Origin: Desulfobacteraceae bacterium Eth-SRB2
GTDB lineage: Bacteria > Desulfobacterota > Desulfobacteria > Desulfobacterales > UBA11574
Length of the DNA stretch: 64,000 nt
Reading direction: 5' to 3'
Assembly (NCBI GenBank): GCA_004193595.1
Contig: RPGQ01000001.1
Coordinates: forward strand, 124,001 to 188,000
The position numbers and the translations under genes were made by a program. The notes under the pieces are model-generated. The model made no database searches, was not told the origin of the DNA, and was given only the letters and a program-made list of their open reading frames with translations. Below, in pieces: positions 22,274-42,270 of this stretch. Position 1 is the first letter of the stretch, and every line of letters starts with the position of its first letter.

Positions 22274-22599
22274 CATATTGAACAGTTTAAATTTTTTCAA
22301 ATCGATACAACGTTAGGGTTCACTCAAAAATAACTTTACATTCTTGTTATCGGATTTAGGGTGTAATTCCACGTCGGAAACTTCGTATGAGGCTTAATTG
22401 AGAGAAAGTCCATTTCGCTATCTGACACTTTTTCTCCTGTTTTGTAATGTTTTCTAACAAAATGTGCTTTCACTTTCAGGCCTGTTGATGTCTTTGTAGT
22501 TCGTATCAACTTAAGTGCTTTCTCGTATGTCCTATTTCATTCGTAAAGATTCGAGGCACATCACGCTATATGTTTTTATAATATATTTTAAAAGTTTAC

Positions 22600-22996
22600 G
22601 TGACGAAAATCATCAACTTGGCGCTGCAACATACCGAAAAAAAGCTGAAATAATCAAGCGCAAAGATTTGGCGGTTCAAAAGATTTTTCAGTGCATGCAC
22701 TGTGTTGTTTTTTAAATCTGCGAAAATGGCTGGCGTTGGCTTTGAACCTTATGAGTCAACGGTAAAAATATCCGCTGATCTAAAGGTACTTCCACCGTTT
22801 TTGTAGAAAGCTGTTCGAAGAATATGGTGATTACATCGACCGGCTGCAAACCAAAGGGCAATCCAGATACTGGCACAATGACGACTGGCTCAAGTATGGC
22901 GGACATGGATCGATTATAAAGGTGTCATGAACGGCTTTTTAAGATCAAAAGAATTTAAAGAGCTTTTTGGACGAACTCAAGACCGCCCAATCGTGA
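22600..22996 (+). pseudogene. Frameshifted copy of the zinc-ribbon gene at 52229-52642
   Basis: The same GTG start context (GTGACGAAAATCATC) and segments such as AAAGATTTTTCAGTGCATGC are recognisable, but several indels break the frame. Nothing translatable beyond short pieces remains. Confidence 0.8.
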
Positions 22997-23097
22997 GGTC
23001 TGTTGATTAATGGTCTTTTCGCACAATCTCTACCGTTATGCTCAAAAATAATCCTCGGAATATTAAAAGAGATTGGGCCGATAAATAGGAGGAGTAT

Positions 23098-23272
23098 ATG
23101 TTTAGGTGGAATGCCGGAACTTATTATCATACTGGTTATTTATCCTGATTATTTTTTGGCGCGGGCGAAGCTTCGGAAATAGGGGCGAATGGGTGAAATA
23201 CATAAAAATTTCAAAGGCGCCACCTCAGGCCTGAAAAGAACCGGACAAGATTGAAGAGACAAAGAACCTTAA
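23098..23272 (+). pseudogene. Frameshifted copy of tatA
   Basis: It keeps the AGGAGGAGTAT ribosome-binding region and ATGTTT start and ends near the equivalent stop, yet indels after the first codons destroy the hydrophobic helix frame. The intact gene is at 51946-52128. Confidence 0.8.
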
Positions 23273-25140
23273 CAAAGAGCCTGCAGAACCGCATGGTCGA
23301 CAATCGAATTATTAGTAATAAGGGCTTTAGCCATGACGTTCCCTCATTTAGGGTTAAAGAAAGATTATCGAACCCTGCAGCTCTTGACTGGCCAATCCAC
23401 ATCCGGGGTGGAGTCAACTTTCAAAGATCGTTCTGTGCGGAATTTGGGGGCGAGATAAACGGTTTGTCTGTCTCTTTTCGTTTCCAAAACACGCAAGACT
23501 ATCCGGCCAAGATTTAATCGTTACCATTTTTCACATAAGGCCGGTTCGTTAAACACTTCTAAATGAATGTCACGGTCACCATCCATATGGTGTGCACAGA
23601 TAATTGTGCATGAGATGCACTTTTATGTTCATCATTGAAAGCAATATTCAAAAAAGACCTTCCATACCACCCTTCTTTTATGGTTATTAAAAATTTTATT
23701 CGATAAAAGATATTGCATATCAGCCAGTTAAAATGGTCATTGGAAATTAATTTCTTGATTATGATTTGGCATGAAAATTGACTATCTTTAGCGTCTGTAA
23801 GGCCACCTTATTATTTTATCAAGTCAATAAAACGATTGCTTGATGGAGAGAAAAATGATGCACAGAAACAATCGCACCAGACCAAGACTTTCCGTGGGGT
23901 TATCATTGTCTTAACTTTTGCAATCATTTTTTCATCAACTAACTCCTGTATCGCTGATGATGGAATCACTTACAGGTGACTGTAGAAAAGTGTCAGAATC
24001 CGATTGTTGGAACTCCAGTATATCTGTTCAACGAAAAGCGGATCATATCTGGGTCAAGTCAGACCACCGATTCCAGGAAGGAAAAGTGGAATTTAATCTC
24101 TCCGAAGAGGAACCTATAAAATCCGGGTGGATTACCTGGAATTTACAAATTCACCAAGCCCGGTGTATACGGTTCCGGCAACCTGTCGAGACTTTCCACC
24201 ATTTACAGGATGTGATCCTAACTGTTGGGGATTATCCATCGTCACAGGCCCATTTCAATATACCCGTGTATCGTTTTAACAGAAGCGGGTTCACATATTT
24301 GAGCCGGAACCAGACCACGGACTCCAACGGCCAGGTGGTGTTTTAATCTTCAGACGATGCTTTACAATGTGCGGGCCGATTTTCACCGTTAAGAAATTCT
24401 GGTCCGGATTCCTTTACCTGTAAAACGGCGGTGACCATGCACATAGCCCGGACGCGCAGAGATTACCGTCACCAGTTCCAGCGCCTGTGGAGGCGTGAAC
24501 GTATATGTATTTACAGCGTCAGGCTCCTATCTCTCAGCAGGTCACTACCAATGCAGGGGGCAAGGTGACTTTTCATGTTCCTGCCGGTGATTACAGAGTT
24601 CAGGGCCGATTATCAGAGCCAGTATTGGAGCGATTCCACAACACTCATTGCCGGTGAGTCAATCCGGTCAGTGTTTTGACCGGCGGCGGCAGTTTACATT
24701 TACACGGTTTTGAAGGTCCGGGGTGCCTATAGCTGATGTCAACTGTTAGTAATGTTCAAAGCGAATCGGGGTTACATTGGAATAAAGCGTGCCACGGACC
24801 CCGGTGGTCAAGAGTCTCTTTTTAATCCTGGCGGACAGCGCACAAGATCGGGTGGATTATCTGGGATACCAGTTCTGGAGCCCTGTGTATGCGGTGAGCG
24901 GCAACCTGTCCGGGGACCCTCACTTTATTGCCCTTACCAGGATGTGACCCTTACCGTCACAAAGGGGATTATCAACCTTAAATGTGAACCCATTGCAAAA
25001 CATACCGGTGTATCTGTTCCAGCAAGTAAGGTTCATGTTTGGGCCGAACGGACCACGAACAAGCGGTCAGGTGGTGTTCAATCTTCCAGACAGTCTTGCA
25101 AGGTTGCGGGCCAGTTATCTCAGGACGGCAATTCTACCAG

Positions 25141-25252
25141 TTAGAAGAAAGGGGTCAAGTCTACTTTTGACCCATAAGAATACCGTCTTGTATTTTCCCT
25201 ATCTTTTTTTAATTTTTCTGTTATATTTGTTAAGCTTCAAAACTATTTAGTG
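25141..25252. repeat. Insertion footprint ending in a GGTCAAGTCTACTTTTGACC hairpin
   Basis: About 110 clean bases with no counterpart in the other copy. It starts with a hairpin (GGGGTCAAGTCTACTTTTGA and its mirror) and then a stretch containing AATACCGTCTTGTATTTTCC that reappears, in reverse, around 36970-37021. This looks like one end of a REP/Y1-type element. Confidence 0.6.
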
Positions 25253-26203
25253 ATAAGGCCGCCGAAACCGGCTTATCTTGGAAAATGTGGAAACAACGGA
25301 TGAGATCGGGTAAAGCCGAGGTTTATCCTGCCGAACACTTCGTTTAAGTTCCGAGATTGATGAAGGCCGGGAATCGGTATTGTGGAGCCCGGTGAGGACT
25401 TCTATTCAGGCAGGTGTTGTAAACCTTGACGTGGAGAAGTCGATATTTCCCCTATTACTGTAAATATAAAGCGATCACAGAAAGCATTCAGTCCAGGGTT
25501 CTCAACCCTTACATGGAAGGAGCTCGACAGGGAGCCGATATATATTGATCGAACCGGATATCGGTACTGTGGATGTCAATGGATCCCATCCGAATTTATC
25601 ACCTGATGCATTAACCATACACAATCCACTGCTACCACCCAGGTTCTGGAGGCACTGCCACCAATTTCAGCGTCGTTGTGACGGTTAATGACATGGTTTT
25701 GCCCTGGTAGAAATAAGTGCCAATCCTTCGATTATTATACAAAGGTTTTCAATGCTCTACTTTAACGTGGACATCCATAAATGCGCAAAGCGCTTTTATC
25801 GATAATGAAGATGATGTTAGCACTGTGTTTGTGGTGGATCGACTGCAATTGTATCCCGACCATACCACCGTCCTATACCATCACGGTAACCGGTCAACGG
25901 GTTCAAATAGTGCACAAGCAGTTGTCACAGTGGTTGGTAGCCCTGAACCAAATTTTGCCCGAAGAGTCTTTCGGCAAAAGAGATATGAAGACCTGATTCA
26001 ACTTGATGCCACGGTGGATGAATACGATACCAAACGCTTTTCATTGATCACCGGCCTGGTTCGTTCCAGTCTTCCACGGTTCATTACATGATACCATGCT
26101 CCGGGATATTCTATCCTAAGTGGACGTGACATATTTTAACATATAACATTCTATTTTCCATGGGTCAATAGTAGACTTGACCCCATTTTTATGACCCCAT
26201 TTT

Positions 26204-27195
26204 TCCAAGCCCGGCGGAGTTCGTTTATTAGGAATTCCGACCGTGTTAGACAGGGTGATCCAACAAGCGGTGGCCCAGGTGCTTAACAGAATCTGGGATC
26301 ATATCTTCTCCGAGTATAGCTTGGGGTTCCGCCCGAAGCGCTCACAGCATGACGCTATTCGCAAATACCGTGAATATGTGGAATCCGGACTGCGGTATGT
26401 AATTGACATTGATTTGGCAAAATTTTTCGACCGAGTGAACCATGATAGGCTTATGGCTCGATTGGCTACGAAAATAACTGACAAGCGGGTGTTGAAACTC
26501 ATCCGCAGTTTCCTGAATTCCGGTGTCATGATTGCCGGCCTTGAGAAGGCGACAAAAGAAGGTACTCCCCAAGGTGGGCCACTTTCGCCGATTTTAAGTA
26601 ATATCGTTCTTGACGAACTTGATAAAGAGCTTGAAAAGCGTGGACTGTGCTTTGTCCGTTATGCAGACGACTGTGTCATCTTTGTCGGAAGCAAGCGGGC
26701 AGGGGACCGAGTAATGGAAAGTGTCAGCCGTTTTATCGAAAAGAAATTACGGCTGGAGGTAAACCGGGAAAAAAGCGCCGTAGGTCGCCCGTGGGAACGC
26801 AAGTACCTGGGATTTTGCCTGACGAATTCACGCAAGAATCCCAAGATCCGTATCCACTGGAAAACGATCAAACGGTTTAAACAGCGGGTACGTGAAATCA
26901 CGGCCCGCCGCCGTGGGCGAAGTCTTTCTCAGGTGATCAATGAACTAAATCAGTTCATGAGCGGATGGTGGAACTATTATGGATTGACCGAATCGTTCAA
27001 CCGCTTACGTCCATTGCCACATTGGATCAGGCGCCGTCTTCGGGCGTTGGTCTGGAAGCATTGGAAGAACCGCAAAACCCGTGTGGGTCAACTCCTGAAA
27101 AGAGGAGTGTCCCGAAACTATGCCGTGACCACAGGCTGTGCCCGTAAAGGCCCCTGGCGTATGAGCAAAGTAAAGTGGGTTAATAAGAACCAGAT
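26204..27195 (+). pseudogene. Internal fragment of a group II intron reverse transcriptase/maturase
   Basis: Homology starts at SKPGGVRLLGIPTVLDRVIQ, past the normal N-terminus, and the frame has an upstream stop and only a GTG (26243) as start. The RT palm is well kept: DIDLAKFFDRVNHD, GTPQGGPLSPILSN and the catalytic YADD in VRYADDCVIF. The maturase domain is present (FMSGWWNYYGL). It then leaves the family at KGPWRMSKVKW, before the usual end, and runs into unrelated codons and the RHS remnant (to 27682). No intron RNA domains V/VI were recognised. It is clean, unlike its scrambled flanks. Confidence 0.85.
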
Positions 27196-29661
27196 CCGCT
27201 TCCCAGTAGGCCGCAGAATTTTCGACCCCTTTGGCCGATCCTGCCTGAGGCTCGCCTTACGATTGGCTCCAGCCCTTTGGAGGGTCCCTCACGGTCAATG
27301 GCATTCGTTTAAGATATGGGGCCATTCGTTTAAGGAATTACAGGGGCAAAATTATTGGCGGTGTTGCCAAGGTCTCCTTTTTCTTCTTTTTTGTAGGACG
27401 CCATTTGGATTCGGGTTTCATGACCAAATGTCCGGCGACAATCTCCTTTTTGCGAAGGCTGGACTGTCTCGCCCCATCATTTTTCAGCCCAGGGATCCTT
27501 CCATCCTATATAAAGGAGATGGCACAATAGCAACAAACATCGCGCCTCTAATTACAAGTCCAATTACATGGATGTTTGTCAGCCTGGTTGAGTCCTTAGC
27601 GGAATACCCGGAACAGCGGTTATATGGGCGACGGCGGTCAGCCATCAGAAGCACAACAATTGTCAGGGAAAATGGCTGTTGACGCTGGCGGGAATCTCTA
27701 TATTGTGGATTCTGGGGAATCATTGCATTCGTAAGATTGGATACAGACGGGATCATCACTACCGTAGCGGCAATGGCATTGCGTATCTGGCAACGATATC
27801 TTGATCAAAGCAGTCAAATGCCATGCTGTACAATCTAATAAGCGTGACGGTGGATGCTGCCGGAAACCTATATATTGCAGACCTCTTCAATTATCACTCA
27901 GAAGGTGGAATGCGGAGGCACATAACTACCGTTGGGAAGCAGCGCATGGTTTTAGCGGTGATAGTAACGGACTGGCTACCGATTACCCAGTACTCCGCAG
28001 GGCCTATTGATGCCAGCTCTTGACGGCGAAGGCGAATTTATACATTATGGAATTACGATGGGGAGATGGGTTGGCGGACTACGCATGGTGGATCCCAAAG
28101 GGGTAATCACCACAGTTTTCCTTTGGATCATTTTATATCAGCATGGCCTTTGACGGTGTCGGGAATCTATATATCTCAGATTTCAATTGGCATACCATCT
28201 GGAAAATGGATACCAGTGGCAATATCGTTCCGGTAGCCCGGCAATTTCTAAAGCGGCTTTTATAGCGGCGATGGCGGTCTGCCGTCGAGGGCCCAGTTTA
28301 ACTATCGACGGAGCGCAACCGTTGATCGACCGGAAATCTTTATATCGTGGATAGCGGCAATAAATGCGAATTTCGCAGGTAAATACAAACGGTTTTATCA
28401 CACCACGGTGGCGGGCCAAGGGGCAAACGGCTATACAAGCGAAAGGCCTCGGCAGATAGATTTGTGATTGCAAGTCCAGCCGACGTTGCCATTGATGACG
28501 CCAGTGAGCTCAAATTTCCTATCAATGCAGCACATCAAGTCCAGTAAAATCGGCCCGCTGGTTCCATATGTTTATATGAAGAGCATGGGCGCAAGAGTGT
28601 TTACTGAGAAAACGGTTTGGGGAATTACGTTGTCAACGGAACATATCGGCCAGCATTTTAAAGACTGGATCTGGACTACCGGCGCCGTGCATTACGAATT
28701 CACCTATGATAATAATAAACTTGTTGGTATCACCGACCGGTTGGCAATCGGACCAGCATTGAAGGGATGCGGGAGGCGGACCATTGCCATTGTCTCAGAG
28801 GGGACTCCACCACCACGATTACCATAGACGCCGACAGCCGTCTTACCCGCGTTACCTATCCTGATGGAAGTTTCACCACAGCTTTAGGGTATACCCGGAC
28901 GGTTTTATGACCACAAAATCGAACCGGAGGAATCGTTTTGTGCATGTTTTGATACTTCGGGCGGATTAACGGATGCAACCGATCAGGAAGGCGGGCACTG
29001 GAGCTTCAACGGGGTCATGTACGCTAACGGCGATGTTCATGCCAGGTACTCACCGGAAGGCAACCTCACGAGAAATATCTTGATGGCTATACCGACTCCG
29101 CAGCACGGTTCAACCATCACCGATCAAAGCGAAATGCAAACAGTTTACCTTTGAATTCAATTTACAGCAAGGCAAATCTCTTCCACATTGGTATGGACTT
29201 TGAATTCAAATTACGACATCGATCCGGAATATGAAGTTTAAAATATGTAAAGGAAATGGCAGAACCACTCCCTCTGTGGCCTGGAGAAAATTACAATCAA
29301 AGAGATAAAACCTACCGGGATACGGATGCGGATGATGGCTTCGGATCGATGACCAGCTCGTGACGGTTAACGGTAAGGCCACCACCCTGGTAAACTCTGT
29401 CCGCAAACCCATGGGATTACCACCTCTCTCCAAATGGAAGGACCGTCGCATCGGACTATGATCCATCGCCTGCTGACGCAGCGCGTGAATTACGCCCGGT
29501 CTTTGACACCACTTATGAATATACCATGACGGGAGGCGGCCGACAGATATTAACACCAATATCAAACATACCAACTTTTGCATTATGACGCCCATGGGTT
29601 TCAAAACTGGTACCGATGCCGAAATCACCACCACGTACACCTACGATGCAGTGGGTCGCAA

Positions 29662-30118
29662 GTCAGCTAGCTTTCATCGGATTCTAACGTATCCGCATCT
29701 CGCCAGGAAGTCAAGCAAAAAGTCGCAAACAATTGCTCCTTTCACAAAAGGTTTATTAATTCAGAGAGTTACGCTGTTGATTCGATAGGATGGGTTCTTG
29801 ATAGAGAAAAAGCGAATGCCATTGACCGTGGGCCTCCCCAAAATCCGATATAATCAGAGGCTTTTTAGTTTTATTAGTTCTCTAAAAAGCAACCCGAGAG
29901 GTGCGCCCAAACTTGGCGATGGTTGGCCTGAAACTGCTGTAAAAAGCTTTATTTGAAATAAATTTGGGTATCCGGATGTCTTTTTTCGCTAATATGAACC
30001 AGATCTCAGGTCGACGAGAGTTGTAAACTTCGGAAATTTACAAATCCTGATACAAAATCATGCCTTTACAATCCCCATAGATATTGGTATAGCAACTTGG
30101 ACCCGCATAAGCGGCTCA
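29662..30118. other. Gap between the inverted copy and the cassette region
   Basis: A short open stretch ending at a TAA near 29850 (frame reading KQKVANNCSFHKRFINSES) may be the tail of a lost gene; I do not recognise it. Inverted pieces GGCTTTTTAG/CTAAAAAGC lie near 29860-29890. Nothing else is supportable. Confidence 0.4.
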
Positions 30119-30252
30119 GTCCAACATGGTTTTATCCTTCATCCCGCTGAAGGATGATCAAAAGCTCCCTGACCCACTATCTATCACTGCTAATCTTACA
30201 ACTTTGCTCAATCCAACATGCGGGACAAAGGATAAAACCCTATACGTTAGCT
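30119..30252. other. Possible integron attC site (long type)
   Basis: GTCCAAC (30119-30125) and GTTAGCT (30246-30252) bound a 134-base palindrome. The arms GGTTTTATCCTTCATCCCGC (30128-30147) and GCGGGACAAAGGATAAAACC (30220-30239) pair at 18 of 20 bases. Length and core boxes fit a long attC site (RYYYAAC ... GTTRRRY), with one mismatch in the right core. Confidence 0.5.
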
Positions 30253-30293
30253 TTTTATAACCGATCGTAAGCTGATTTTCGCAGGGGTGCCAT

Positions 30294-30953
30294 ATGGAAA
30301 ATATAAGCAAGTTAGCCACATCAATACAAAAATTAATCTCTCCCTTTACAGAGCCTATTTTTTCTGAATTTGGTAATTATATAGCAGAAAAAATCCGTTT
30401 TGTTCGTTTTCAAAACAGCCTTAAGGTACTTGCACGGGCAAAAGATATATTACAAGAAAAAGGCCTTGATACAAAGTCTGTTGATCTTAAGGTCTTAGTT
30501 CCAATTATAGAAGGAGCGGCTCTAGAAGAAGACGATGAAATGACTGAAATTTGGGCAAAATTACTCGCTTCAGCTTCTCATGATGATAACGTTATCACAC
30601 CTTTCCCAAGAATCCTATCTGAACTAAGCCCGAAGGAAGCAAAAATACTTTCATACCTATACGATCAATGGTCGGCGGTAATTCTTATTGGAGATGGACA
30701 AATTTCTGAACCAACATGTGAGCACTTACTGGATAATTTTGATTTCAAATCGGATAAATACGGAAGTGAATTTGAATTAATCATTAACAATCTAGTAAGG
30801 CTGAGACTTATTGGTCTTGGCGGAGTTCAAATTAAGGACATAGACTCACAAAATTACGCTATTCAAAATTACCAACAAATTGTATTAACTCAGTTCGGTT
30901 GGGCTTTCATTAGAGCTTGCCAAGGTCCTGAGGCGGATGAAAAATTCAAATAA
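30294..30953 (+). CDS. Abi-alpha / DUF4393 family protein (putative abortive infection)
   Basis: The 219-residue protein matches the Abi_alpha (DUF4393) layout as I know it: an N-terminal helix with a GNYIAEKIRFVRFQNSLKVL segment, VPIIEGAALEEDDEMTEIWA with the conserved acidic run near residue 75-90, and a C-terminal helical domain. Family members are linked to phage-triggered abortive infection, though the mechanism is not established. The gene starts about 45 bases inside a presumed gene cassette and its stop lies 6 bases before an attC-like site, the packing expected of an integron cassette. Confidence 0.75.
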   Translation: MENISKLATSIQKLISPFTEPIFSEFGNYIAEKIRFVRFQNSLKVLARAKDILQEKGLDTKSVDLKVLVPIIEGAALEEDDEMTEIWAKLLASASHDDNVITPFPRILSELSPKEAKILSYLYDQWSAVILIGDGQISEPTCEHLLDNFDFKSDKYGSEFELIINNLVRLRLIGLGGVQIKDIDSQNYAIQNYQQIVLTQFGWAFIRACQGPEADEKFK

Positions 30954-30958
30954 TCATT

Positions 30959-31016
30959 AGCTAACCATTCACTGGTGCCGACCCAAAAAGCCGGGCGGCA
31001 CAGTTCAACGTTCGGC
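30959..31016. other. Probable integron attC site (short type)
   Basis: AGCTAAC (30959-30965) and GTTCGGC (31010-31016) bound a 58-base imperfect palindrome in which ACTGGTGCCG (30971-30980) pairs with CGGCACAGT, leaving one extrahelical base, as attC sites do. The left core AGCTAAC is the exact complement of GTTAGCT at 30246-30252, which is what the two ends of a single excisable cassette must show. Confidence 0.65.
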
Positions 31017-31026
31017 ATAGGAAATA

Positions 31027-31142
31027 ATGGAAACGAATCTAAAAAAAATAGAAAGAACGTCCAAGTTAAAAAAAGATGAAAACTGGGAATTCCGTGCATT
31101 TTTAAAAGGCTACGATATTCCACTCGAAGAGTTAGATTCAAT
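31027..31142 (+). pseudogene. 5' fragment of a gene cut by the IS at 31143
   Basis: The frame from ATG 31027 reads METNLKKIERTSKLKKDEN and WEFRAFLKGYDIPLEELDS, then enters the IS left end and stops at 31218. The WEFRAFLKG...EELDSI pattern recalls the start of YkgJ-like cysteine-cluster proteins. After the IS (32752 onward) a short HRVRIYSQS frame could be its continuation before a stop. It would be the second cassette gene after the attC-like site. Confidence 0.5.
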
Positions 31143-32751
31143 TGGGAGCATTACCCGTTTCTCCGCGATAATTTATGAAATTAATAGAATAAAGAGACAA
31201 AATTGCAATAAACTTTAATAATCATAATTAAAAGTTGAATATCAAGCAGGACAATAATCGCCGCTTAATATATCTCATCATGGGTAATAGAGCTTGATTT
31301 CAAAAAAGGAAATTCCATGGTCCCCAAAGCTGCGGTTATCGTCTCCGAAGATTGGAAGTCGGGTTTTTTATCATTCGTCAGTGAACGCTTAGACCAAATA
31401 GAAAAGGATTACCAAATGGAATCAATGGATGATATATCCAGAAGCCTTTTCGCAAACCGTTCTGATATCATGGGACAAGCGGCTTTGGCGTTGATCGAGA
31501 AAAAGTTCGGCCACTTGCTTGATCAACAATATTGCCAATGCCCGCATTGTCTTCGCCGAATCAAAGCCAAAACTAAAAAGGTCAAACGTGAAATACAGAT
31601 TCTCGTTGGGACCGTAACGCTGTATCGTCCCTACTTTTATTGTAATAGCTGCCAGTTCGGTTTTTATCCTATAAACGAAGCGTTAGGGCTTTCTAACCGC
31701 AAAATACAACCGGATGTCCAAGAATTAGAAGCATGGCTGGCAGCTGAGATGCCCTATGAAACCTCCTGCGAAACGCTTCAACGATGTGCCGGTATACCAG
31801 TCAGCAACCACCATATCCACGATGTTTCCAATGAAATTGCGCAAGATCTTCAGATTTTAGATGTTTGCCCCGGAAAAGAAGAAATTAAGCGTCAAATTGA
31901 CACAATATGCGAAGGTAAATTCCGCAGGCCCATCTTAATGATCGGCCTTGACGGCGCTCATGCACCGACCCGTCCCGAGCCTTCATCCAGAAAAGGGCCA
32001 AGGGGTAAAGGTGAGTGGAAAGAGGTTAAAGGGTTTCGTCTGTATCTGCTTGATAGTGAGCGCATTATCCATTTAATCAGTTGGCATCAGATTAAAAACG
32101 ACAAAGAGCTATCGGCCGATCTGTTACGCATTAAACAAACTGCTCTGATTCCTGAAGAAAAAGTACGCATCTGCGTTATCGGTGATGGTGCCCCTTGGAT
32201 ATGGAATCGCATCCAGGAGCTTTTTCCTGATGCCAAGCTGGTATTGGACTATTATCATTGCAGCCAATATTTATACGATACAGCGCATGCCCAATACGGT
32301 AAATACAGCCAAAAGGCTCAAGAGTGGGTAGAGGCGACACTTACCCGGCTATTCTCAAACAATATTGAGCAAATAATCGCTGGGATCAAACGCATGAAGC
32401 CATCATCGAATTCTGCCAAGGAACAAATCGACAAAACTATTGGATATCTTTCCGAACGTACTGACAAACTCAAGTACGGTGCATTAAAGCGTGGTGGTTA
32501 TCACATTGGTAGTGGTGGTATTGAAAGCTCCAATAAGTTTATATCCAATGCTCGCTTGAAGCGATCCGGTGCCTGGTGGTATCCGACCAATGCCAACAAC
32601 ATCTTAAAACTCCGCTGTGCTAAATACAACGGAACTTTTGATAGAATAATGGCTGAAATCAAGAAAAAAAATAAGCCAAATTATTCTCAAAAAGAACTGG
32701 GTGAACTTCGTCTCGTGGTTAACAATTCTTGAGAAACAGGTAATGCTCCCA
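31143..32751 (+). mobile_element. Intact ISKra4-type insertion sequence
   Basis: Inverted repeats of 21 bases (31143-31163 starting TGGGAGCATTACC, and 32731-32751) match at 20 positions and frame one full-length transposase gene. The element is about 1.61 kb. I see no clear target-site duplication. It interrupts the frame that starts at 31027. Confidence 0.85.
31317..32732 (+). CDS. ISKra4-family transposase
   Basis: A 471-residue transposase. The N-terminal part has zinc-finger-like pairs (CQCPHCLRRIKAK, YFYCNSCQFGFYP), followed by the family segment LSNRKIQPDVQELEAWLAAE. The catalytic core includes MIGLDGAHAPTRPEP and VCVIGDGAPWIWNRI-like sequence, then GGIESSNKFISNARLKRSG. ATG or GTG alternatives near the start are possible; the ATG at 31317 follows AAGGAAATT. 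Frame intact and end overlaps the right inverted repeat by two bases. A frameshifted relative lies at 42486-43843. Confidence 0.88.
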   Translation: MVPKAAVIVSEDWKSGFLSFVSERLDQIEKDYQMESMDDISRSLFANRSDIMGQAALALIEKKFGHLLDQQYCQCPHCLRRIKAKTKKVKREIQILVGTVTLYRPYFYCNSCQFGFYPINEALGLSNRKIQPDVQELEAWLAAEMPYETSCETLQRCAGIPVSNHHIHDVSNEIAQDLQILDVCPGKEEIKRQIDTICEGKFRRPILMIGLDGAHAPTRPEPSSRKGPRGKGEWKEVKGFRLYLLDSERIIHLISWHQIKNDKELSADLLRIKQTALIPEEKVRICVIGDGAPWIWNRIQELFPDAKLVLDYYHCSQYLYDTAHAQYGKYSQKAQEWVEATLTRLFSNNIEQIIAGIKRMKPSSNSAKEQIDKTIGYLSERTDKLKYGALKRGGYHIGSGGIESSNKFISNARLKRSGAWWYPTNANNILKLRCAKYNGTFDRIMAEIKKKNKPNYSQKELGELRLVVNNS

Positions 32752-33137
32752 GCATAGAGTAAGGATTTATTCGCAGTCTTTTTCTTAACGGTCTGTTAAA
32801 AGATCATTTGATACTTGGCAAGTAAATACAGTTTCGATATGCCCTATGGTATTGGTATGATACCAGCACTTTCTCAATATTTTGGCTAACCACAACATGT
32901 GGGTGTGCTTTGGATTAGCATTCGTTTCAGGAAAATGTTTCATCTCAACAGTCGCTAAAATCGAATGATAGCGTGGATCGAAAAGTGGCTATCGCAAATA
33001 TATAAAGGAACTAATTATATTTTTAAAATATAACATATTACTGATATTGTGTTGCTTTTTTTTATGTTATATTATAAAAATTTAGTAACAATCTTCATAA
33101 AGATAATTTCCTGCCAAATTAAACAAGGAGAAGAGCG
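32752..33137. other. AT-rich gap before the GH114-like gene
   Basis: No gene is visible. A promoter-like TTGTGT ... TATATT arrangement lies near 33047-33075, and the final bases AACAAGGAGAAGAGCG supply a good ribosome-binding site for the next gene. Confidence 0.35.
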
Positions 33138-36100
33138 ATGAAAACCTTGAGGCTCTCATTCCTATTTTTATTGCAATTATCATTTTGTTACCTGATCATG
33201 ATTATTTTATTCCCTGGGTCCCTATTGGCAAAAAAAACAATCTATTTCCCGCATGTTGCCAGCGATAACACCTGGGAAACAGAAATCTGCTTAATAAATA
33301 CCAATAGCGGAAGCAGCCTCAGCGGCGAACTATATGCTTATAATAATGAGGGCCAGAAAATCCATTCGGAAAATATTATGTTAGAATCACGGGCTCGAAG
33401 AGAGATTATTATCGGCAACGAGTTGCCCTCTCCGAAAAATGTTGGCTACATTATTTTTGAGTCTGATTTAGAAACGATCTGCGGATATACAAAATTTTAT
33501 ATAGACGGGAAATATCGTGTCGCCATTCCCGCATCTTCTGAGGTCAATGCCAGCAGTATTTACGTTTCTCATATTGCATCAACCTCAACCTGGTGGACCG
33601 GCATTAGTCTTCTAAACACCAATTCAACTGCAAAAACGCTAACCATCGAGTTCGATAACGGCACCACAATAACAAAAACGATCCAAGCCGGAGAACACCA
33701 GGCGTTCACCATTAAAAGCCTATTTCAGGGTAACGCACAACCAGACTTCACCTCAGCTATCATAAAGAATGGCGCTGGGATTGTCGGTCTTGAATTGTTT
33801 GGTGGTTATGACAGTAGTGGCAATAATTATCTAAGCGGCATCCTCTTAAGGGATGATACGGCAACCGACATCTATTATCCTCATATTGCAAGCGATTCAA
33901 CCTGGTGGACGGGGGTGGTTGCCTATAATCCTTTTACTACCCCCTGTACCCTCACGATTACTCCTTATAAAACGGATGGGACGGCGTTATCTTCTCAAAC
34001 AATTTCACTGGCTGGTAACGAAAAGTATATCGGTACTATCAACAACTTAAACTTCCCATCGGGAACGGTCTGGTTCAGCATCAAATCAACGGGCCCTATA
34101 ACCGGGTTTGAATTGTTCGGTACAAACGATGGAAACCAGTTAGGAGGATATACGGGGGTTGGTATTAGCGCTACAGAGGGCATATTTGCCAAAGTAGAAA
34201 AAGGGGGTGGTTGGACCGGTATTGCCTTTGTGAACATTAAGGATTCTTCAGCGACCGTCACAATGACGGCCTATAACGACAACGGCAATGTGATCGAAAT
34301 GGAGACCTTAACTGTTGGCGCATATGCAAAAATTGTCGGTGTGGCGCCAAGCCTGTTTTCACAAAATATCAATAATGCCACTTATATTGGTTATTCATCG
34401 AATAAAGAAGTTGTTGGATTTCAGCTCAACGGATCATCGGACGGCATGCTGCTGGACGGATTGCCGGGGATCAGAAGCGGCGGTCCAAATGAAAAGCTAA
34501 AGGCTGTTCAAACATGGATGTACCAGATTCAGGACTTGGATGTGGACGGCGCTTTGGCGGCTCTTGCAGCATCGGATTACCCACTTCTGGTGATCGAACC
34601 CGGACACAATTTCAACGAATGGGCCTATGATACGGCAACTATTGTCAACACCCTTCGAACCCCTGTAAAGGGCAGTGACCGCCGGTTGGTTGTGGCGTAT
34701 ATCGATATCGGTCAGGCTGAAGACTACCGCGATTACTGGGGCGCGGACTGGGTTGCGCCGACCGCCACAAAGGCAGGGTCTCCGGATTTCCTCGTCACCA
34801 TCGATCCGGATGGCTGGTCTGGCAACTATCCAGTGGCCTATTGGAAACAGGAATGGAAAGATATCTGGATTGGGGATTCGGGCATTATCGATCAATTGGC
34901 TAACTATGGCTTTGACGGAATCTACCTCGATTGGGTAGAAGCTTACGACGATGAAAAGGTCATTGCTGCCGCTGCAAAAGATAATGTCGATCCGGCACTA
35001 GAGATGATAAAATTCATTGAAGAGCTCGGCCAGGCCGGGCGGGCGGTTTCTGGGGATTTCATCGTGATCCCCCAAAATGCCCCCTACCTCATCGATGCTG
35101 CTCCTGCCCGGTACTCACGAGCCATTGATGCGCTTGCTGTGGAGGACACCTGGTTTCACGGCGCAGGCGATGCAGACTGGGATGATCCTGATGCAGGTGA
35201 TCTCCATGAACGACATGACGGGGAATGGTCTACGGAAAACCGTTTGAAACAGTACAAGAAATATCAGGATCGCGGGTTGCCAGTTTTTTCCGTGGATTAT
35301 TGCATTTCAACCGAAAATGCTAACTATGTTTACACAGAAGCGGCAAAAGCCGGTCTGGTGCCCCTGGTTACCCGGGTGTCATTGTCGCGTATGACGGAAA
35401 CGCCTTTAATCTATCCACCAGCAGGGTCTCTATTCCGTGATTTTACATTTTCTCTTCCTATTTTTTCATCGGCCAGTCCATGGAATCAAAAAGTTAACAA
35501 CTCGACAGTAGTGCCTCAAAATGATCAACAAATTCTTACCTTATACCGAGTACTTCGCGGCGACACAACGGGATTTCAGCCGCCAACCACAACACCTGTT
35601 ACAACCTGGCCATTCATTGACATCAATTATGATGCTTATTCCGTTCCAATTTTTGCAATGGGAAGCGGTGTGCAGAATGTGACCGTAAAGGATTATAACG
35701 GTAATGTCAGCGGTAATAATTCCAAACTGCCTACAGGGCAGGACGGCAAAATCCAGGTGCCAACTCTCGCCGGCAATATTCGCCCAGCCGGCCCCCAGGA
35801 TACGGATGCAGATGGCCACATGGTGCTCTTCAATACCCAGACGGGTATAGTTTATGATTTTTGGCAGGTAACAACGTCCCAGGACGCTTCAGGAAACAGC
35901 CTCGGCGGCGGACAAACCGGAACCAACATCCTGGCCATGGGTGCCGTGGATTATTTTGACACGAGTGCAACCGGCATCAATGCGGACAGCATTTCCAGTG
36001 CTCGGGCAACAGGCGTGCCGCTACTGGCGGGTCTGATATTACCTGAGGACATTGAAAGTGGAAGCATCGATCATGCCCTGTGTTTCGCGATTCCTTTTCC

Positions 36101-36617
36101 CAGGAATCTAAACACCGCAAACCCTTTTGAGCCTTTTTCCACCGATTATTTTTCGCCCGCCTCCACCACAGAAACTGATTATTACAGTACCAACGCTAAT
36201 GCACTAGCAGCAGGGCAAACAATTCGCCTCAAACAAATCCTTGTGGATGAAGATGGGCTGACTATCGATGAAACAGGGTTATCACCAATTACGCTCATGT
36301 TTCTAAAGGCACTACGAACCTATGGCGGTATTGTTGTTGATAACGCCGGCGGTTTTTCCTTTTATGCCGAAGATATTCATACTGGAAATCTTAGGCTCAC
36401 GGAAGATCAAGTCAACCAACTGATCGGTAGCCCCATCGGTACACAGATACCGTCCGGAAAAACCAAATGGCAATTGGTCCTTGAGACGCTGTCACTGGAA
36501 CTTGAACAAATTCCTATGGCATATGGTCCCTGGACATCTGGTCAAAATCCATCATCTGCAACCATCACAACATCCAACTATGAAATTGTTTCCCGGGTCT
36601 CGTCCTCTAACGATTAA
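33138..36617 (+). CDS. Large secreted protein with a GH114-like glycosidase domain
   Basis: A 1,159-residue protein with a signal peptide ending near GSLLA (residue 32). Residues about 35-450 hold repeated beta-rich units that begin YFPHVASDNTWETEI, YVSHIASTSTWWTGI and YYPHIASDSTWWTGV. A TIM-barrel domain like GH114 (endo-alpha-1,4-polygalactosaminidase family) covers about 455-755: VVAYIDIGQAEDYRDYW, then GFDGIYLDWVEAYDD with likely catalytic acids, then GDFIVIPQNA. The last 400 residues (SSASPWNQKV ... IDHALCFAIPF) form another secreted module I know only as uncharacterised. It may cut or modify galactosaminoglycan-type exopolysaccharide. Confidence 0.82.
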   Translation: MKTLRLSFLFLLQLSFCYLIMIILFPGSLLAKKTIYFPHVASDNTWETEICLINTNSGSSLSGELYAYNNEGQKIHSENIMLESRARREIIIGNELPSPKNVGYIIFESDLETICGYTKFYIDGKYRVAIPASSEVNASSIYVSHIASTSTWWTGISLLNTNSTAKTLTIEFDNGTTITKTIQAGEHQAFTIKSLFQGNAQPDFTSAIIKNGAGIVGLELFGGYDSSGNNYLSGILLRDDTATDIYYPHIASDSTWWTGVVAYNPFTTPCTLTITPYKTDGTALSSQTISLAGNEKYIGTINNLNFPSGTVWFSIKSTGPITGFELFGTNDGNQLGGYTGVGISATEGIFAKVEKGGGWTGIAFVNIKDSSATVTMTAYNDNGNVIEMETLTVGAYAKIVGVAPSLFSQNINNATYIGYSSNKEVVGFQLNGSSDGMLLDGLPGIRSGGPNEKLKAVQTWMYQIQDLDVDGALAALAASDYPLLVIEPGHNFNEWAYDTATIVNTLRTPVKGSDRRLVVAYIDIGQAEDYRDYWGADWVAPTATKAGSPDFLVTIDPDGWSGNYPVAYWKQEWKDIWIGDSGIIDQLANYGFDGIYLDWVEAYDDEKVIAAAAKDNVDPALEMIKFIEELGQAGRAVSGDFIVIPQNAPYLIDAAPARYSRAIDALAVEDTWFHGAGDADWDDPDAGDLHERHDGEWSTENRLKQYKKYQDRGLPVFSVDYCISTENANYVYTEAAKAGLVPLVTRVSLSRMTETPLIYPPAGSLFRDFTFSLPIFSSASPWNQKVNNSTVVPQNDQQILTLYRVLRGDTTGFQPPTTTPVTTWPFIDINYDAYSVPIFAMGSGVQNVTVKDYNGNVSGNNSKLPTGQDGKIQVPTLAGNIRPAGPQDTDADGHMVLFNTQTGIVYDFWQVTTSQDASGNSLGGGQTGTNILAMGAVDYFDTSATGINADSISSARATGVPLLAGLILPEDIESGSIDHALCFAIPFPRNLNTANPFEPFSTDYFSPASTTETDYYSTNANALAAGQTIRLKQILVDEDGLTIDETGLSPITLMFLKALRTYGGIVVDNAGGFSFYAEDIHTGNLRLTEDQVNQLIGSPIGTQIPSGKTKWQLVLETLSLELEQIPMAYGPWTSGQNPSSATITTSNYEIVSRVSSSND

Positions 36618-36780
36618 TACGCGCATTGCTGCGTTGAAAGCAGCAAACAAGACTGTGAGATCAATGCTGCCAAGCGGATACTGGCAAACCCTTTTCCCAT
36701 CATTGACATTTACATATTAATAGGGGATGTTCGTGCAGAAAGTGCTTGGGGTTTAATATTCAATATGAAAGTTACAGGTT

Positions 36781-36894
36781 ATGCCAAAGTTGGAGAGATT
36801 AGATGCCCCTGGAGTGTTGCACCATGTCATGGGTCGGGGTATTGAGTGGGAAATGGTGTCAAATCTATGTTTGACCCTTGGGGATAAACGATAA
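36781..36894 (+). pseudogene. 5' fragment of a Y1 (REP-associated) transposase
   Basis: The frame reads MPKLERLDAPGVLHHVMGRG, the typical start of Y1_Tnp/RAYT proteins, and after about 22 codons runs into a repeat element that ends it. The catalytic HUH and tyrosine parts are missing. Confidence 0.75.
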
Positions 36895-37021
36895 GAGTAG
36901 AATGTCGAAATGATCTTATTATCAAGGAGTTTCGATGCTTAAAAAATGTGACAAAAAAATAATAAACGGATAAGAAAAATACAAGACAGTGTTAATAAGG
37001 GTCAAAGGCAGACTCGACCCC
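36855..37021. repeat. Short element with GTCAA...TTGACC hairpins at both ends
   Basis: The left end (GGTGTCAAATCTATGTTTGACC) and the right end (GGGTCAAAGGCAGACTCGAC) are imperfect palindromes. The inner GAAAAATACAAGACAG segment matches, in reverse, the footprint at 25141. It is probably a non-autonomous REP-type element. The rest of the 36618-37279 gap carries the cold-shock gene leader. Confidence 0.55.
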
Positions 37022-37279
37022 ATTTCTTACATGAGAGAAAATAGTTTTAAGATAGATGTTTTAGTTCCAAATAATCATACTTTTTCCCAACTTTTTTTAT
37101 TAAAAGCCAATGAGATAAATATTTAGCTTGCTATTGCATATAAGGTGCTTATCATAGGGAATCAATTAAATCTCGCCGGTAATTGGCGGGAGGGTTTATT
37201 TCTGTGGGAATATCCGTTTATTAAACGCTATCATCCTTCAGTTTGTAACGTTGAAATTATTTGAAAGGAGGATGATATT

Positions 37280-37480
37280 ATGACGAATGGAACAGTTAAG
37301 TGGTTCAATGACAGTAAAGGTTATGGATTCATCGAGCAGGAAGACGGACCGGATGTATTTGTGCATCACAACGCAATCAATGCGGACGGCTTCAAGTCTC
37401 TCAATGAAGGTGACAGCGTCACGTTTGAGATTGAGCAAGGGGCAAAAGGCCCGTCTGCTGCCAATGTGACCGTAGCCTAA
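37280..37480 (+). CDS. Cold-shock domain protein (CspA family)
   Basis: A 66-residue cold-shock OB fold that binds single-stranded RNA/DNA. RNP1 is seen as GYGFIEQ and RNP2 as [16 protein letters not shown] precedes the ATG. The AT-rich leader of more than 100 bases before the start is typical of cold-shock mRNAs. A strong terminator follows, so it is monocistronic. Confidence 0.96.
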
Positions 37481-37501
37481 CCTGCTTTTTTATGGCAACT
37501 G

Positions 37502-37537
37502 AAGGCATCTCCTGTGAAACGGGGGATGCCTTTTTTA
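37502..37537 (+). terminator. Rho-independent terminator of the cold-shock gene
   Basis: AAGGCATCTCC pairs with GGGGATGCCTT across a short loop and is followed by a run of six T. Confidence 0.9.
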
Positions 37538-37633
37538 ATGATCGCTTGCACGGAAACACCAAAGTTGGTTGAGATCCTTTTTCCCGTTGTCGGTCATCTT
37601 ATGGATCCGGCAACCCACCCGAAAGGAAACATA

Positions 37634-38098
37634 ATGGCAATAATTGAACATAAAAAAAGCCGGGCGGAAAAAAACAAGGTGGGTTTCCATGAGGGTCAGA
37701 AAGTGACGTTGCTCATCTCCCATCGAACGGAGATGGGATTCGTCGCCGTCATCAACGGCAGCCACAAGGGCATCCTGTATGAAAACGGAGTATTTCAGCC
37801 GCTGAAAATCGGCCAGGAAATTGACGGCTATATCAAGAAAGTGCGTGACGATGAAAAAATAGACCTTTGTCTGCAAAAGCCCGGCTACAAAGCCATTGAT
37901 GCCCTATCCCGAAAAATTATGGACAAATTACGGCAACAGGGCGGATTTATGGCCATCACCGATAAAAGTCGGCCCGGTGCAATCGCCGACATTTTTGGCG
38001 TCAGCAAAAAAGCATTCAAGAAGGCCATCGGCAACCTGTACAAAAAAAGGCTGATTACCCTTGAAAAAAACGGCATCCGGCTGCGGGACAAAAATTAA
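37634..38098 (+). CDS. S1-type and winged-helix protein (C-terminal CvfB-like)
   Basis: ATG 37634 follows GAAAGGAAACATA and yields 154 residues; a longer frame from 37514 runs through the terminator, so the shorter start is preferred. Residues 15-80 form an S1/OB-like domain (VGFHEGQKVTLLISHRTEMG) and the rest is a winged helix (KSRPGAIADIFGVSKKAFKK). This equals the C-terminal half of CvfB/YitL RNA-binding regulators; their N-terminal S1 domains are absent. It may be a shortened family member. Confidence 0.75.
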   Translation: MAIIEHKKSRAEKNKVGFHEGQKVTLLISHRTEMGFVAVINGSHKGILYENGVFQPLKIGQEIDGYIKKVRDDEKIDLCLQKPGYKAIDALSRKIMDKLRQQGGFMAITDKSRPGAIADIFGVSKKAFKKAIGNLYKKRLITLEKNGIRLRDKN

Positions 38099-38267
38099 AA
38101 AATCAATGTTTGGAGCGCGTGCGTGAGCACCTGTTTTCCCGAGGAATTACCTATATTATTTCTCACCGGATCGGTAGAACCTATCCGGGTCCTCCAACCA
38201 GAGGTGGAGGGCTAGGATCAAAACTAAAGCCGCAACTCTGAACTTTGAACCCGGAACCTTATTAACG

Positions 38268-39038
38268 ATGCGCAAATTGGCTTTTGGATACTCAACGAAA
38301 TGCAATATCCGCTGTGAGTACTGCGTGGCCACGGAAGATCTGCCGGCCGATAAAAAGATGGATTCTGATCGGGCCAGAGAAATCATTGTCGAAATGGCTC
38401 AGGCGGGTGTTGGCGGCATCAGTTTTTCCGCAGGGGAACCGTTTTTATATTTCAACGAAATTGTAGCGCTTGTGAAACTGTGCCAACGCATCGGAATATA
38501 TACGCGAATGGTCACCAACAGTTTTTGGGCAAAAACCGCAGCGTCTTCCGACCGCCGGGTTTCAGAGCTGAAAAAAAATGGGCTTTGCCAATTGAGATTA
38601 AGCTTTTCAAGGTGGCACCAGAAGCATGTAAACAAAGACAATGTGTTGAATGCCGGCCGTGCGGTGTCTTTCAAACGCAGGCAGATTTTGACCGATTACC
38701 AAGCCAGCTGCTGCGACATGAACCCTTGTCTGACGCCGGATCTTGATATGTACGCCTGTTGCGATGCGGGCAGCCATTTTCCGGAAACAGACTTTTTTTA
38801 CCTGGGGAACCTGAAAGACAATACGATAAAACAACTTTTCGCTAAAACGGAAACAGACCGCTTGCACAACCTCATTCGAACCATGGGGATAGCCCACATC
38901 GCATCCTATACCGGTATGCGGGCCCGCGAGATCATCACCTATAGTAAATGCGAACTGTGTCGCAAGCTGTTCAACTCCCCTGAAACCGTAACCCGGCTGA
39001 AAGCTGAAATCCCGCAACTGACAGCCTGGTGCCGATAG
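38268..39038 (+). CDS. Shortened radical SAM/SPASM protein
   Basis: Residues 1-110 are a radical SAM N-half with the cluster loop KCNIRCEYC, followed by GISFSAGEPFLYF. After residue about 125 (WHQKHVNKDNVLNAG) the protein jumps directly to a SPASM-like end, CCDMNPCLTPDLDMYACCDA and CELCRKLF. At 256 residues it lacks roughly 80-100 residues of barrel core seen in relatives, so an in-frame deletion seems likely and activity is doubtful. Gene order gives no substrate hint. Confidence 0.7.
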   Translation: MRKLAFGYSTKCNIRCEYCVATEDLPADKKMDSDRAREIIVEMAQAGVGGISFSAGEPFLYFNEIVALVKLCQRIGIYTRMVTNSFWAKTAASSDRRVSELKKNGLCQLRLSFSRWHQKHVNKDNVLNAGRAVSFKRRQILTDYQASCCDMNPCLTPDLDMYACCDAGSHFPETDFFYLGNLKDNTIKQLFAKTETDRLHNLIRTMGIAHIASYTGMRAREIITYSKCELCRKLFNSPETVTRLKAEIPQLTAWCR

Positions 39039-39074
39039 TAATTCAAGTTGCCAGGATATACGGAAGGTGTTGAA

Positions 39075-39803
39075 ATGACCTCAAAGAAATATTATGCCGT
39101 CGCATCCGGCCGCAAGCCCGGAATTTATGATAACTGGCCGGCAGCACAGGCCCAGGTGACAGGCTACCCGGGCGCGAAATTCAAAGGGTTCCCAACTCGA
39201 AAAGCGGCCGAGGCGTGGCTAAAAAAGCCCACAACCTGTCAACCCAGCGTCAACCCCCCGCGCAAGACCGGGCCGTCAAATTCAGACACCACCCCCAAAG
39301 CCGGCGAGGTAACGATATACACCGATGGCAGCGCCCGCTATAACCCGGGCCCCGGCGGTTACGGAATCGTCCAGATCTATAATGGTGAGCAAAAAGAACG
39401 CTCCGGCGGCTATAAACTGACCACCAACAACCGCATGGAACTCATGGGCTGCATTGTGGCGCTTCGTGAACTCGAGCACCGCGACAAACCGGTGACGCTC
39501 TGTTCCGATTCCAGCTATATGGTAAACGGCATCGTTAAGGGGTGGGCGAAAAACTGGCGCAAAAAAGGCTGGATCAAATCCGACAAAAAGCCCGCCGTCA
39601 ACCCCGACCTATGGGCTCAGCTGCTGGATCTCATTGAGGATCTGAACGTCACTTTCAAATGGGTCAAGGGCCATGCCGGCAATCCCTTCAATGAGCGTTG
39701 CGATCAATTGGCCGTGGCTTGTGCCCGGCAGGAGGGCTTGCCGCCGGATGCCGGGTATAATGCCCCAGGGGTCAAGGGGCCGAGGATTCCAGAATTCGAG
39801 TGA
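39075..39803 (+). CDS. rnhA: Ribonuclease HI with N-terminal hybrid-binding domain
   Basis: RNase HI cuts RNA in RNA-DNA hybrids. ATG 39075 (GAAGGTG upstream) gives 242 residues. Residues 1-50 form the viroplasmin-like hybrid-binding domain (YYAVASGRKPGIYDNW). After a linker, the catalytic domain shows TDGSARYNPGPGGYG, NRMELMG, SDSSYMVNG and the final NERCDQLA, supplying the D-E-D-D carboxylates. Standard domain order and length. The TTG at 39048 is a less likely start. Confidence 0.93.
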   Translation: MTSKKYYAVASGRKPGIYDNWPAAQAQVTGYPGAKFKGFPTRKAAEAWLKKPTTCQPSVNPPRKTGPSNSDTTPKAGEVTIYTDGSARYNPGPGGYGIVQIYNGEQKERSGGYKLTTNNRMELMGCIVALRELEHRDKPVTLCSDSSYMVNGIVKGWAKNWRKKGWIKSDKKPAVNPDLWAQLLDLIEDLNVTFKWVKGHAGNPFNERCDQLAVACARQEGLPPDAGYNAPGVKGPRIPEFE

Positions 39804-39863
39804 AAGAATTTATAGTTACCCCCCCTTGCGATTTTGTTTGTACCCGATGGGCCTTGTTGGTGT

Positions 39864-40382
39864 TCATTTTAAAAAACGGTTTGGGCGGGCGGGTCGACCG
39901 GCGGGCCCCGTTTTTCTCGATCCGCCGGCTTTCGGGCCGGATGGTTTTTGAGCGATATAAACCGCATGGCTGCGTCCGCCCCGACCGGCGCGTTGCAGGC
40001 TTACAGAGAATCGGGCCGCTTTCAACCGTTTTTCAAAGGTCTTGTTCGGATCTTCGGACCAAACCGCAAACACCCCGCCCGCCTTCAATGCCAAATGGCT
40101 TAACGCCAGTGCCCTATCGCCGTACAGATACGATCTTCTGCCCGTCCCCCCCCTACGCGGACCTTCGTAAAGGTCCAGAATGATGGCATCAAAACGATTT
40201 TCCATATCCTTTTTTGCTACACAGCGGATGCGCGCGGCCACGTCATCAATTACCACCGTAACCCGCGGGTCGTCAACGGCCCCGCCGGTTAAATGGGCCA
40301 ACGGTCCCCGACACCATTTGACGATGACCGGGTTCAACTCAGCCACCTCGACCTGAGCGTCAACGGAAAGCGTATCAACGCC
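39864..40382 (-). pseudogene. 3' part of a spermidine-synthase-like gene, cut by a Y1 element
   Basis: The minus frame reads VEVAELNPVIVKWCRGPLA and later AIILDLYEGPRR and FAVWSEDPN, which resemble the C-terminal two thirds of spermidine-synthase-family methyltransferase folds. The reading frame continues upstream to the edge of the transposon at 40383, and no 5' half is found beyond it. Its end is GC-rich with repeated RPAR-type residues. The GTG at 40346 could act as a start, but the missing N-terminal half makes function unlikely. Confidence 0.75.
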
Positions 40383-41336
40383 TGGGGTCGGACCGAGATA
40401 ATATGCTATAAATACACATAAAAGAATGTTTTTGAGGGGTCATTAAGGGCTTAGAGTGACGATTTTCATGCTAAAAAGACAGTTTTAAGGTCAATCGCAT
40501 ACGTTTTGATGCTTATGGCAAGGGCAAACATATACTACATACCGGGTTTGATTTGGCATATAACCCATCGGTGTCACAAGAAGGAATTTTTGCTGAAATT
40601 CGCAAAGGACCGCAGAAGTTGGTTGAAATGGCTGTTTGAGTCAAAGAAGCGCTTCGGTACTAGGATATTAAACTACACCGTCACATCAAATCATGTTCAT
40701 CTGCTTGTTCAAGACGACGGGGGTCGTGATGTGCTGCCCAATTCCATTCAATTAACCGCAGGCCGCACTGCTCAGGAATACAACCAAAGGAAGAAACGAA
40801 AGGGCGCGTTTTGGGAGGATCGGTATCATGCGACCGCCGTACAGAATGATGATCATCTTGTCCGTTGTTTGGTTTATATCGACCTAAATATGGTCAGAGC
40901 CGGCGTTGTTAATCACCCATCGGAATGGCCTTTTGGCGGCTATAATGAAATACAGACACCTCCCCGGAAATATTCTTTAATCGACCGGGGACGGCTAATG
41001 ACCCTGCTTGGGTTTGACGATAGTGATAGATTCAGCAAGACCTACCAGGACTGGGTGGAATATATACTCTGCACCAACGGCCACCGCCGCGAGGCGAAAT
41101 GGACGCAGAGTATCGCCGTTGGCAGCAAAGTTTTTGTGGAAGATATAAAGGATAAGCTTGGATACAGGGCTATCGGTAGAAAGGTTGTCGGCACGGGAGA
41201 TGGGTATGAACTCAAAGAGAACGTTGCTTCTTACAGCGCTGATTTTGGTGCCAAAATGAGCACTTTAAGACCAGAAAACAACTTTAAATGGCGCGTTTAT
41301 GAAATGAATTCAACATAGTATCTCGGTCCGACCCCA
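40383..41336 (+). mobile_element. Intact REP-associated Y1 transposon
   Basis: Perfect 18-base inverted ends (TGGGGTCGGACCGAGATA at 40383-40400 and its complement at 41319-41336) frame a single transposase gene. It truncates the spermidine-synthase-like gene on its left. Confidence 0.85.
40515..41318 (+). CDS. REP-associated tyrosine transposase (Y1/HUH)
   Basis: ATG 40515 gives MARANIYYIPGLIWHITHRC, the normal start of this family; ATG 40509 is also possible. The HUH motif is NHVHLLV near residue 65, and the catalytic tyrosine probably lies in TAQEYNQRKKRKG. GAFWEDRYHAT and LVYIDLNMVRAGVVNHP are further family signatures. Full length at about 267 residues. It nicks single-stranded DNA at palindromic ends, consistent with the flanking inverted repeats. 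Confidence 0.9.
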   Translation: MARANIYYIPGLIWHITHRCHKKEFLLKFAKDRRSWLKWLFESKKRFGTRILNYTVTSNHVHLLVQDDGGRDVLPNSIQLTAGRTAQEYNQRKKRKGAFWEDRYHATAVQNDDHLVRCLVYIDLNMVRAGVVNHPSEWPFGGYNEIQTPPRKYSLIDRGRLMTLLGFDDSDRFSKTYQDWVEYILCTNGHRREAKWTQSIAVGSKVFVEDIKDKLGYRAIGRKVVGTGDGYELKENVASYSADFGAKMSTLRPENNFKWRVYEMNST

Positions 41337-41381
41337 ATTGGCAAAGGTATGGGGATTTCATAAATCATTAAAGAAGACGGT

Positions 41382-41606
41382 ATGCTGATTCGAAACATTA
41401 AAAAAGTGTTACTTCTAATAGGATTTTTGTTTTTCTTTTCTCTCTCAATTCCCAGTACGATGGCAGGAGACATAGAACACAACTCCAGGTGTGGGCAAAG
41501 ATACGCTCGATGTTTAGAAAAATGCAATTTTATAACCGAAATTAACGATAACCTCCGATGCAGAAGTGGTTGCTGGGAAGAATACCAGTGGTGTTTGAAG
41601 GAATGA
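41382..41606 (+). CDS. Small secreted cysteine-rich protein
   Basis: A 74-residue precursor with a clear signal peptide (VLLLIGFLFFFSLS) and probable cleavage after TMA. The mature part has six cysteines in three CxxxC-type pairs (CGQRYARCLEKC, CRSGCWEEYQWC) in predicted helices, suggesting disulfides or metal binding, like helical CxxxC-CxxxC hairpin proteins. AAGAAG lies before the ATG. No neighbour explains it. Confidence 0.7.
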   Translation: MLIRNIKKVLLLIGFLFFFSLSIPSTMAGDIEHNSRCGQRYARCLEKCNFITEINDNLRCRSGCWEEYQWCLKE

Positions 41607-41869
41607 AACTAATTACTGTGTGATTAGCAAAAATAATTAAATTAATCAGATATGAAAATTTCAGAGGAAAGCGAAATAAAATGAGGCTTGATCGACCAAT
41701 GGATCAGAACTTATTGACTTTTATATAAATATTTTGGTTTAGATGCCGATAATAATTTAAATATTTTTCAGGAAGTATCGAGCCGAAAATATGGGCCTTT
41801 TAGACTATATCCTGCAATACTTGATCAGAAATAATATTTAAGGGTGTAAGTAAAAAAACTGGGGAATTT

Positions 41870-42031
41870 ATGGAGAATGTTTGCAGGTCATCGACAATTA
41901 TATCGAAAGGAATAGGCGAGGTAATTGATGAAGCAAATAAGACGGGTATAGTCATATTGAAAGAAGAATGGGGAAAGGCTTCTAAAGGGTATACAAAAAT
42001 CGAACAACCCGTTTTTAAAGAAAATATTTAA
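41870..42031 (+). CDS. Possible 53-aa hypothetical protein
   Basis: A frame with an ATG preceded by weak GGGGAAT gives 53 residues rich in lysine and isoleucine. The region (41607-42270) is AT-rich and looks eroded; the frame may be a relic. I recognise no domain. Confidence 0.3.
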   Translation: MENVCRSSTIISKGIGEVIDEANKTGIVILKEEWGKASKGYTKIEQPVFKENI

Positions 42032-42270
42032 ATTACACCAAAAATCAAGAAATTGTATCAGGAAGAATATAGCAAATATAAAAATGAAATTTTACTAAAA
42101 CATACTATCTAAGCTTTAACATCCCATTTTTCCTTCAGATTATTTTCGTTTAAATCCAATAAATTACTAAACTTTTACGTAACGCCTACCGATATATTAA
42201 AAGAATCCGTTTTTTTATATATCTTTATCAATATGTTGTGGAACCATTTAAAAGATAGAAGGTGGCGGTG

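Follow-up and report, generated by a model that had tools for sequence, protein, structure and literature searches.

A noisy inverted copy of a teneurin-like gene region in a Desulfobacterales-like draft genome is very probably a mirrored raw-read gap fill

The window, meaning the whole stretch of 64,000 nucleotides analysed here, belongs to a Desulfobacterales-like draft assembly of 83 contigs (91.9% completeness, 2.6% contamination). It contains an intact teneurin-like gene and, some 16 kb away, a noisy inverted copy of the region in which most of this gene lies. The copy occupies positions 22532-29667, to be read against 52711-45592, and is composed of three noisy blocks separated by two clean stretches. 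The features that enter the argument, in window coordinates, are the following.

22532..25135, plus strand: first noisy block, putative fill 1; inverted copy of 50094-52711 with 87.8% identity, 170 indel events and 82 substitutions; mirror axis near 37618
25136..25262, plus strand: dispersed repeat between fills 1 and 2, 127 bp, apparently a clean short contig
25263..26068, plus strand: second noisy block, putative fill 2; inverted copy of 49212-49978 with 88.9% identity, 41 indel events and 22 substitutions
26069..27421, plus strand: stretch of 1353 bp with a group II intron-type reverse transcriptase (RT), apparently a clean short contig
26243..27682, plus strand: open frame of 479 codons, apparently chimeric, with RVT_1 and GIIM domains to about 27095
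27422..29667, plus strand: third noisy block, putative fill 3; inverted copy of 45592-47837 with 89.6% identity, 128 indel events and 61 substitutions
29668..45591, no strand: clean, non-palindromic stretch between the arms, with the mirror axis at about 37620
44662..51063, minus strand: intact teneurin-like gene of 2133 codons with TTR, NHL and RHS/YD repeats
45592..52711, minus strand: clean source region that appears mirrored in the fills, containing most of the intact teneurin/RHS-like gene

Other elements of the window are an Abi_alpha-type (abortive infection) gene at 30294-30953, which adjoins the noisy region, and a tandem repeat with units of 15/45 bp at 10519-10794, within a long open frame. 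A 70-bp dispersed repeat is found at 22998-23067, 52159-52233 and 56920-56994, and it makes up most of the 40 places returned by a genome search with the first noisy block. Scans of the window with Rfam models and for tRNAs gave no match.

The teneurin-like gene is a member of a family of four intact genes in the host genome, of about 2050-2200 codons and with TTR, NHL and RHS/YD repeats; the three further paralogs lie on contigs C5, C26 and C7. Among six other genomes of the same genus, two have short matches to the family and four have none. The paralogs served as a control for the way in which true duplicates of this gene diverge. Six alignments of the clean gene and the paralogs on C5, C26 and C7 contain 2396 mismatches and 45 gap openings, which is about 50 mismatches per gap opening, whereas in the noisy copy indels are twice as frequent as substitutions. 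A pseudogene would be expected to carry far more substitutions than indels, as the paralogs do here, and the noisy copy has the opposite composition.

Pooled, the three noisy blocks give 5895 alignment columns, of which 5227 are identical (88.7%), with 165 substitutions vs 339 indel events (178 insertions and 161 deletions), about 70% of the latter being of a single base. The inverted, indel-rich copy of 7 kb that the first-pass annotation had described is thus confirmed. Coverage by open frames of at least 200 codons is 5% in the noisy blocks, compared with 71% in the partner sequences and 73% in the remaining window. The substitutions are strongly asymmetric, comprising 94 A<>G exchanges, 18 C<>T exchanges and 53 transversions spread over eight types, and the errors depend on homopolymers: in the window about 10% of single bases are touched, rising to 65-75% of runs of at least five and to 75% of runs of at least six, and over 11 noisy blocks the rise is from 9% of single bases to 79% of runs of at least six. 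Since the purine exchanges are one-stranded and run in both directions, they point to a single sequenced strand and not to double-stranded mutation over time.

These features resemble those of one raw long read, probably from a nanopore instrument, and the earlier reading of the copy as unpolished long-read sequence is supported by its indel richness, its one-stranded A<>G exchanges and its homopolymer dependence. According to the available text of Delahaye and Nicolas 2021 (PMC8486125), in nanopore reads kept in their sequenced orientation A-G exchanges exceed the transversion rate by a factor of three to five, and C-T exchanges are only slightly raised; the error rate near 10%, the A<>G excess and the homopolymer-dependent errors are shared with the noisy copy. 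The same text reports mostly deletions for recent nanopore reads, and here the copy differs, with insertions as common as deletions (178 vs 161). The annotation had also seen the errors cluster at GC runs such as CCGG and had suggested modified bases as a possible source. There is a weak enrichment, CCGG sites being touched in 40% of cases in the window, vs 30% for all 4-mers, and in 37% vs 28% over 11 noisy blocks, but modified-base errors at CCGG account for a minor share of the noise at most. CCGG methylation was rejected as the main cause of the errors; homopolymers count far more.

Noise of this type is not confined to the window. A sample of 1,167,518 of the 5,261,976 bases of the host genome (about 22%) was compared with itself, and repeat pairs of at least 290 bp and at least 80% identity were classed as noisy when they had more than 2 gap openings per 100 columns and more than 0.35 per mismatch. 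Of the 41 noisy pairs, 28 consist of inverted copies on one contig, separated by under 70 kb, compared with 5 of the 66 clean pairs that are inverted within one contig. Of the remaining noisy pairs, nine join different contigs and four are direct repeats within one contig (insertion-element copies and a C31 repeat). A few of the 28 arise from repeats located within the arms and do not represent separate fills (e.g., C26:115536/151969 and C31:19511/27004). Most noisy pairs cluster on C1, which holds the window, and on C7, C14, C26, C31 and C77. Further mirrored noisy fills are seen at C31 5671-30364, C77 21145-32024 and 33502-59969, C7 15960-29699, C26 138461-155218 and C14 96457-122617.

In eight clusters on six contigs the inverted pairs share one mirror axis per cluster, which for the window cluster lies at 161614-161640 on the contig; on C31 the axis is displaced by about 200 bp where a run of N intervenes. 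Most clusters also have a single sign of substitution asymmetry. C14 and C31 have an excess of C<>T in place of A<>G, which would require that both contigs were turned over once the fills were in. Between the noisy blocks, 16 pairs of mirrored blocks were examined, and one of them (on C31, touching the run of N) was set aside. In each of the 15 others the two blocks have almost the same length (log-length correlation 0.9994, median difference 9 bp); in 14 there is no similarity between the two, and the exception shares 231 bp at 91%. Unrelated blocks of equal length in mirrored positions are expected neither from a true duplicate with insertions nor from a palindromic read; they would follow if the contigs had been positioned correctly on a read whose mirrored coordinates supplied nothing but the intervening sequence.

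Both clean stretches within the noisy region of the window follow this pattern. The 127 bp of 25136-25262 are unrelated to the mirrored 115 bp, and their segment 25147-25260 is 100% identical to G000:C71:290245-290132, which makes this 114-bp repeat error-free within a noisy region. The RT stretch of 1353 bp (26069-27421) is unrelated to its mirrored partner of 1374 bp, and its final 196 bp (27223-27418) recur, identical, at C14:96261-96456, where another noisy fill begins at the base directly after 96456. As the RT stretch and the C14 copy end alike, fills appear to start where short-read contigs end in a shared repeat. In the best reading, the clean RT and repeat inserts are real short-read contigs that flank the fills. 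The RT frame (26243-27682) runs across such a junction, with its final 87 codons inside fill 3. Its RT domain is also cut at the N-terminus, the profile match beginning at position 18 of 205.

A case in which the true sequence is known is provided by an insertion-like element of 1674 bp, whose reference copy lies at C26:54859-56532. C26:115540-117207 is an inverted copy of this element in which both termini are clean and correctly ordered. Between them lie 755 bp, against an expected 759, of noisy sequence (84% identity) that corresponds to element positions 124-872 in direct orientation, instead of the reverse complement of 229-987. The mirror axis, derived by hand from the coordinates, is at about 116656 and the gap centre is at 116603; the fill was therefore not simply inverted in place, its mirror point lying elsewhere. 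Two other inverted copies (C26:141043-142714 and C77:42040-43715) lack the middle of the element in place, and for both the mirror position carries a complete noisy copy that is oppositely oriented. The putative fills predicted to contain true sequence lost from elsewhere (C26:141729-142486 and C77:42727-43487) have no partner within the sample of 1,167,518 bases, as predicted. With the known element and the equal-length unrelated blocks in hand, the earlier argument that clean RT and repeat segments indicate a real locus with its own history is no longer supported.

Taken as a whole, 22532-29667 is very probably an assembly artefact in which gaps were filled by coordinate with raw long-read sequence from the wrong strand, and the noisy inverted copy is probably false and not a real duplicated gene. 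The accurate short-read contigs would be the left flank, which ends at 22531, the 127-bp repeat, the RT stretch and the right flank, which begins at 29668, all ordered by one long read with a length of at least 30.2 kb in the window. The three gaps between them would then have received raw sequence of the ordering read, as read[i:j] where the reverse complement was meant, and each fill would reproduce, in reverse complement, the region that lies opposite it across the read midpoint (about 37,620 in the window). That opposite region would lie within the teneurin-like gene and its surroundings at 45.6-52.7 kb, a second copy of the gene would be needless, and the true content of the three gaps (about 2.6, 0.8 and 2.2 kb) would be absent from the assembly. 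The arrangement found is that expected of wrong-strand filling, namely mirrored reverse complements, one axis per read and preserved gap lengths; from it we infer that such a read existed, how it was oriented and that a program was at fault.

It is likely that such a strand-coordinate fault in a hybrid assembler or gap filler systematically writes mirrored raw-read sequence, creating false inverted duplications and deleting true repeats, and the same explanation can be expected to cover numerous sites in one public genome or more. A literature search, mainly of open-access papers, found foldback reads and false duplications and no description of this fault. In a context of its own, the available text on LazyB (PMC8168326) calls for the coordinates of match intervals to be replaced when a read is reversed, and leaving out a replacement of this kind would give the picture seen here. 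Both gapFinisher (PMC6733440) and LazyB were considered as the program responsible, but nothing in the accessible text of either source ties the host genome to it. Among six other genomes of the same genus, the right flank of the noisy region was found in none, and of the left flank short dispersed repeats alone recur; these relatives therefore cannot show the contents of the gaps. A search of genome contigs with the PG-binding protein returned no relative, and one with PBP returned 62 loci, mostly in Desulfobacterales or Deltaproteobacteria metagenome assemblies, with a best identity of 92%, which indicates the group of the host.

Inverted noisy copies sharing one axis would also arise if a foldback (palindromic) long read had been built into the assembly with one arm left unpolished, an artefact that has been described (Heinz et al. 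2026, PMC12870357, in the part available) and that shares the inverted noisy copy and the single axis with the window. A foldback read is, however, palindromic throughout, up to its turning point, and 15.9 kb between the arms of the window are clean and non-palindromic; 14 of the 15 mirrored block pairs inside arms are unrelated, and the C26:116226-116980 fill is mirrored on both sides of its axis, an outcome that turning at the axis could not produce. The three differences from the artefacts covered by that text, a clean non-palindromic loop, unrelated mirrored blocks and a reversal that extends to either side of the axis, make a foldback read very unlikely. A second alternative, a true inverted duplicate that escaped polishing, the short reads having mapped to its cleaner counterpart, would account for noise limited to the duplicated sequence and for clean unique inserts, yet it leaves unexplained the unrelated blocks of equal length, the one-axis geometry of eight clusters on six contigs and the misoriented middle of the known element, and is considered highly improbable. 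A genuine duplicate that decays unusually fast, perhaps by RT-linked error-prone copying, has the RT frame between the noisy blocks in its favour and can be given next to no credence against a ratio of indels to substitutions of two to one, errors that are one-stranded and homopolymer-dependent, like noise on C7, C14, C26, C31 and C77, and the error-free 114-bp repeat inside the region.

Mirrored filling from a raw read resembles the false duplications known from genome assemblies (PMC9516828, as far as its available text goes) in that the gain of a gene is confined to the assembly, and differs from them in that the false copy is inverted, mirrored and filled from raw read sequence. Assemblies affected in this way could be flagged by a recognizable signature, consisting of copies that are inverted and on the same contig, with indels as many as mismatches, one axis and unrelated blocks of equal length, and databases could apply this mirrored-fill signature. 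For the host genome, the reading is a warning that its other inverted, indel-rich repeats (28 pairs in about 22% of the sequence) may have been made alike, and it would remove from consideration a false gene duplication of 7 kb and a false chimeric RT gene.
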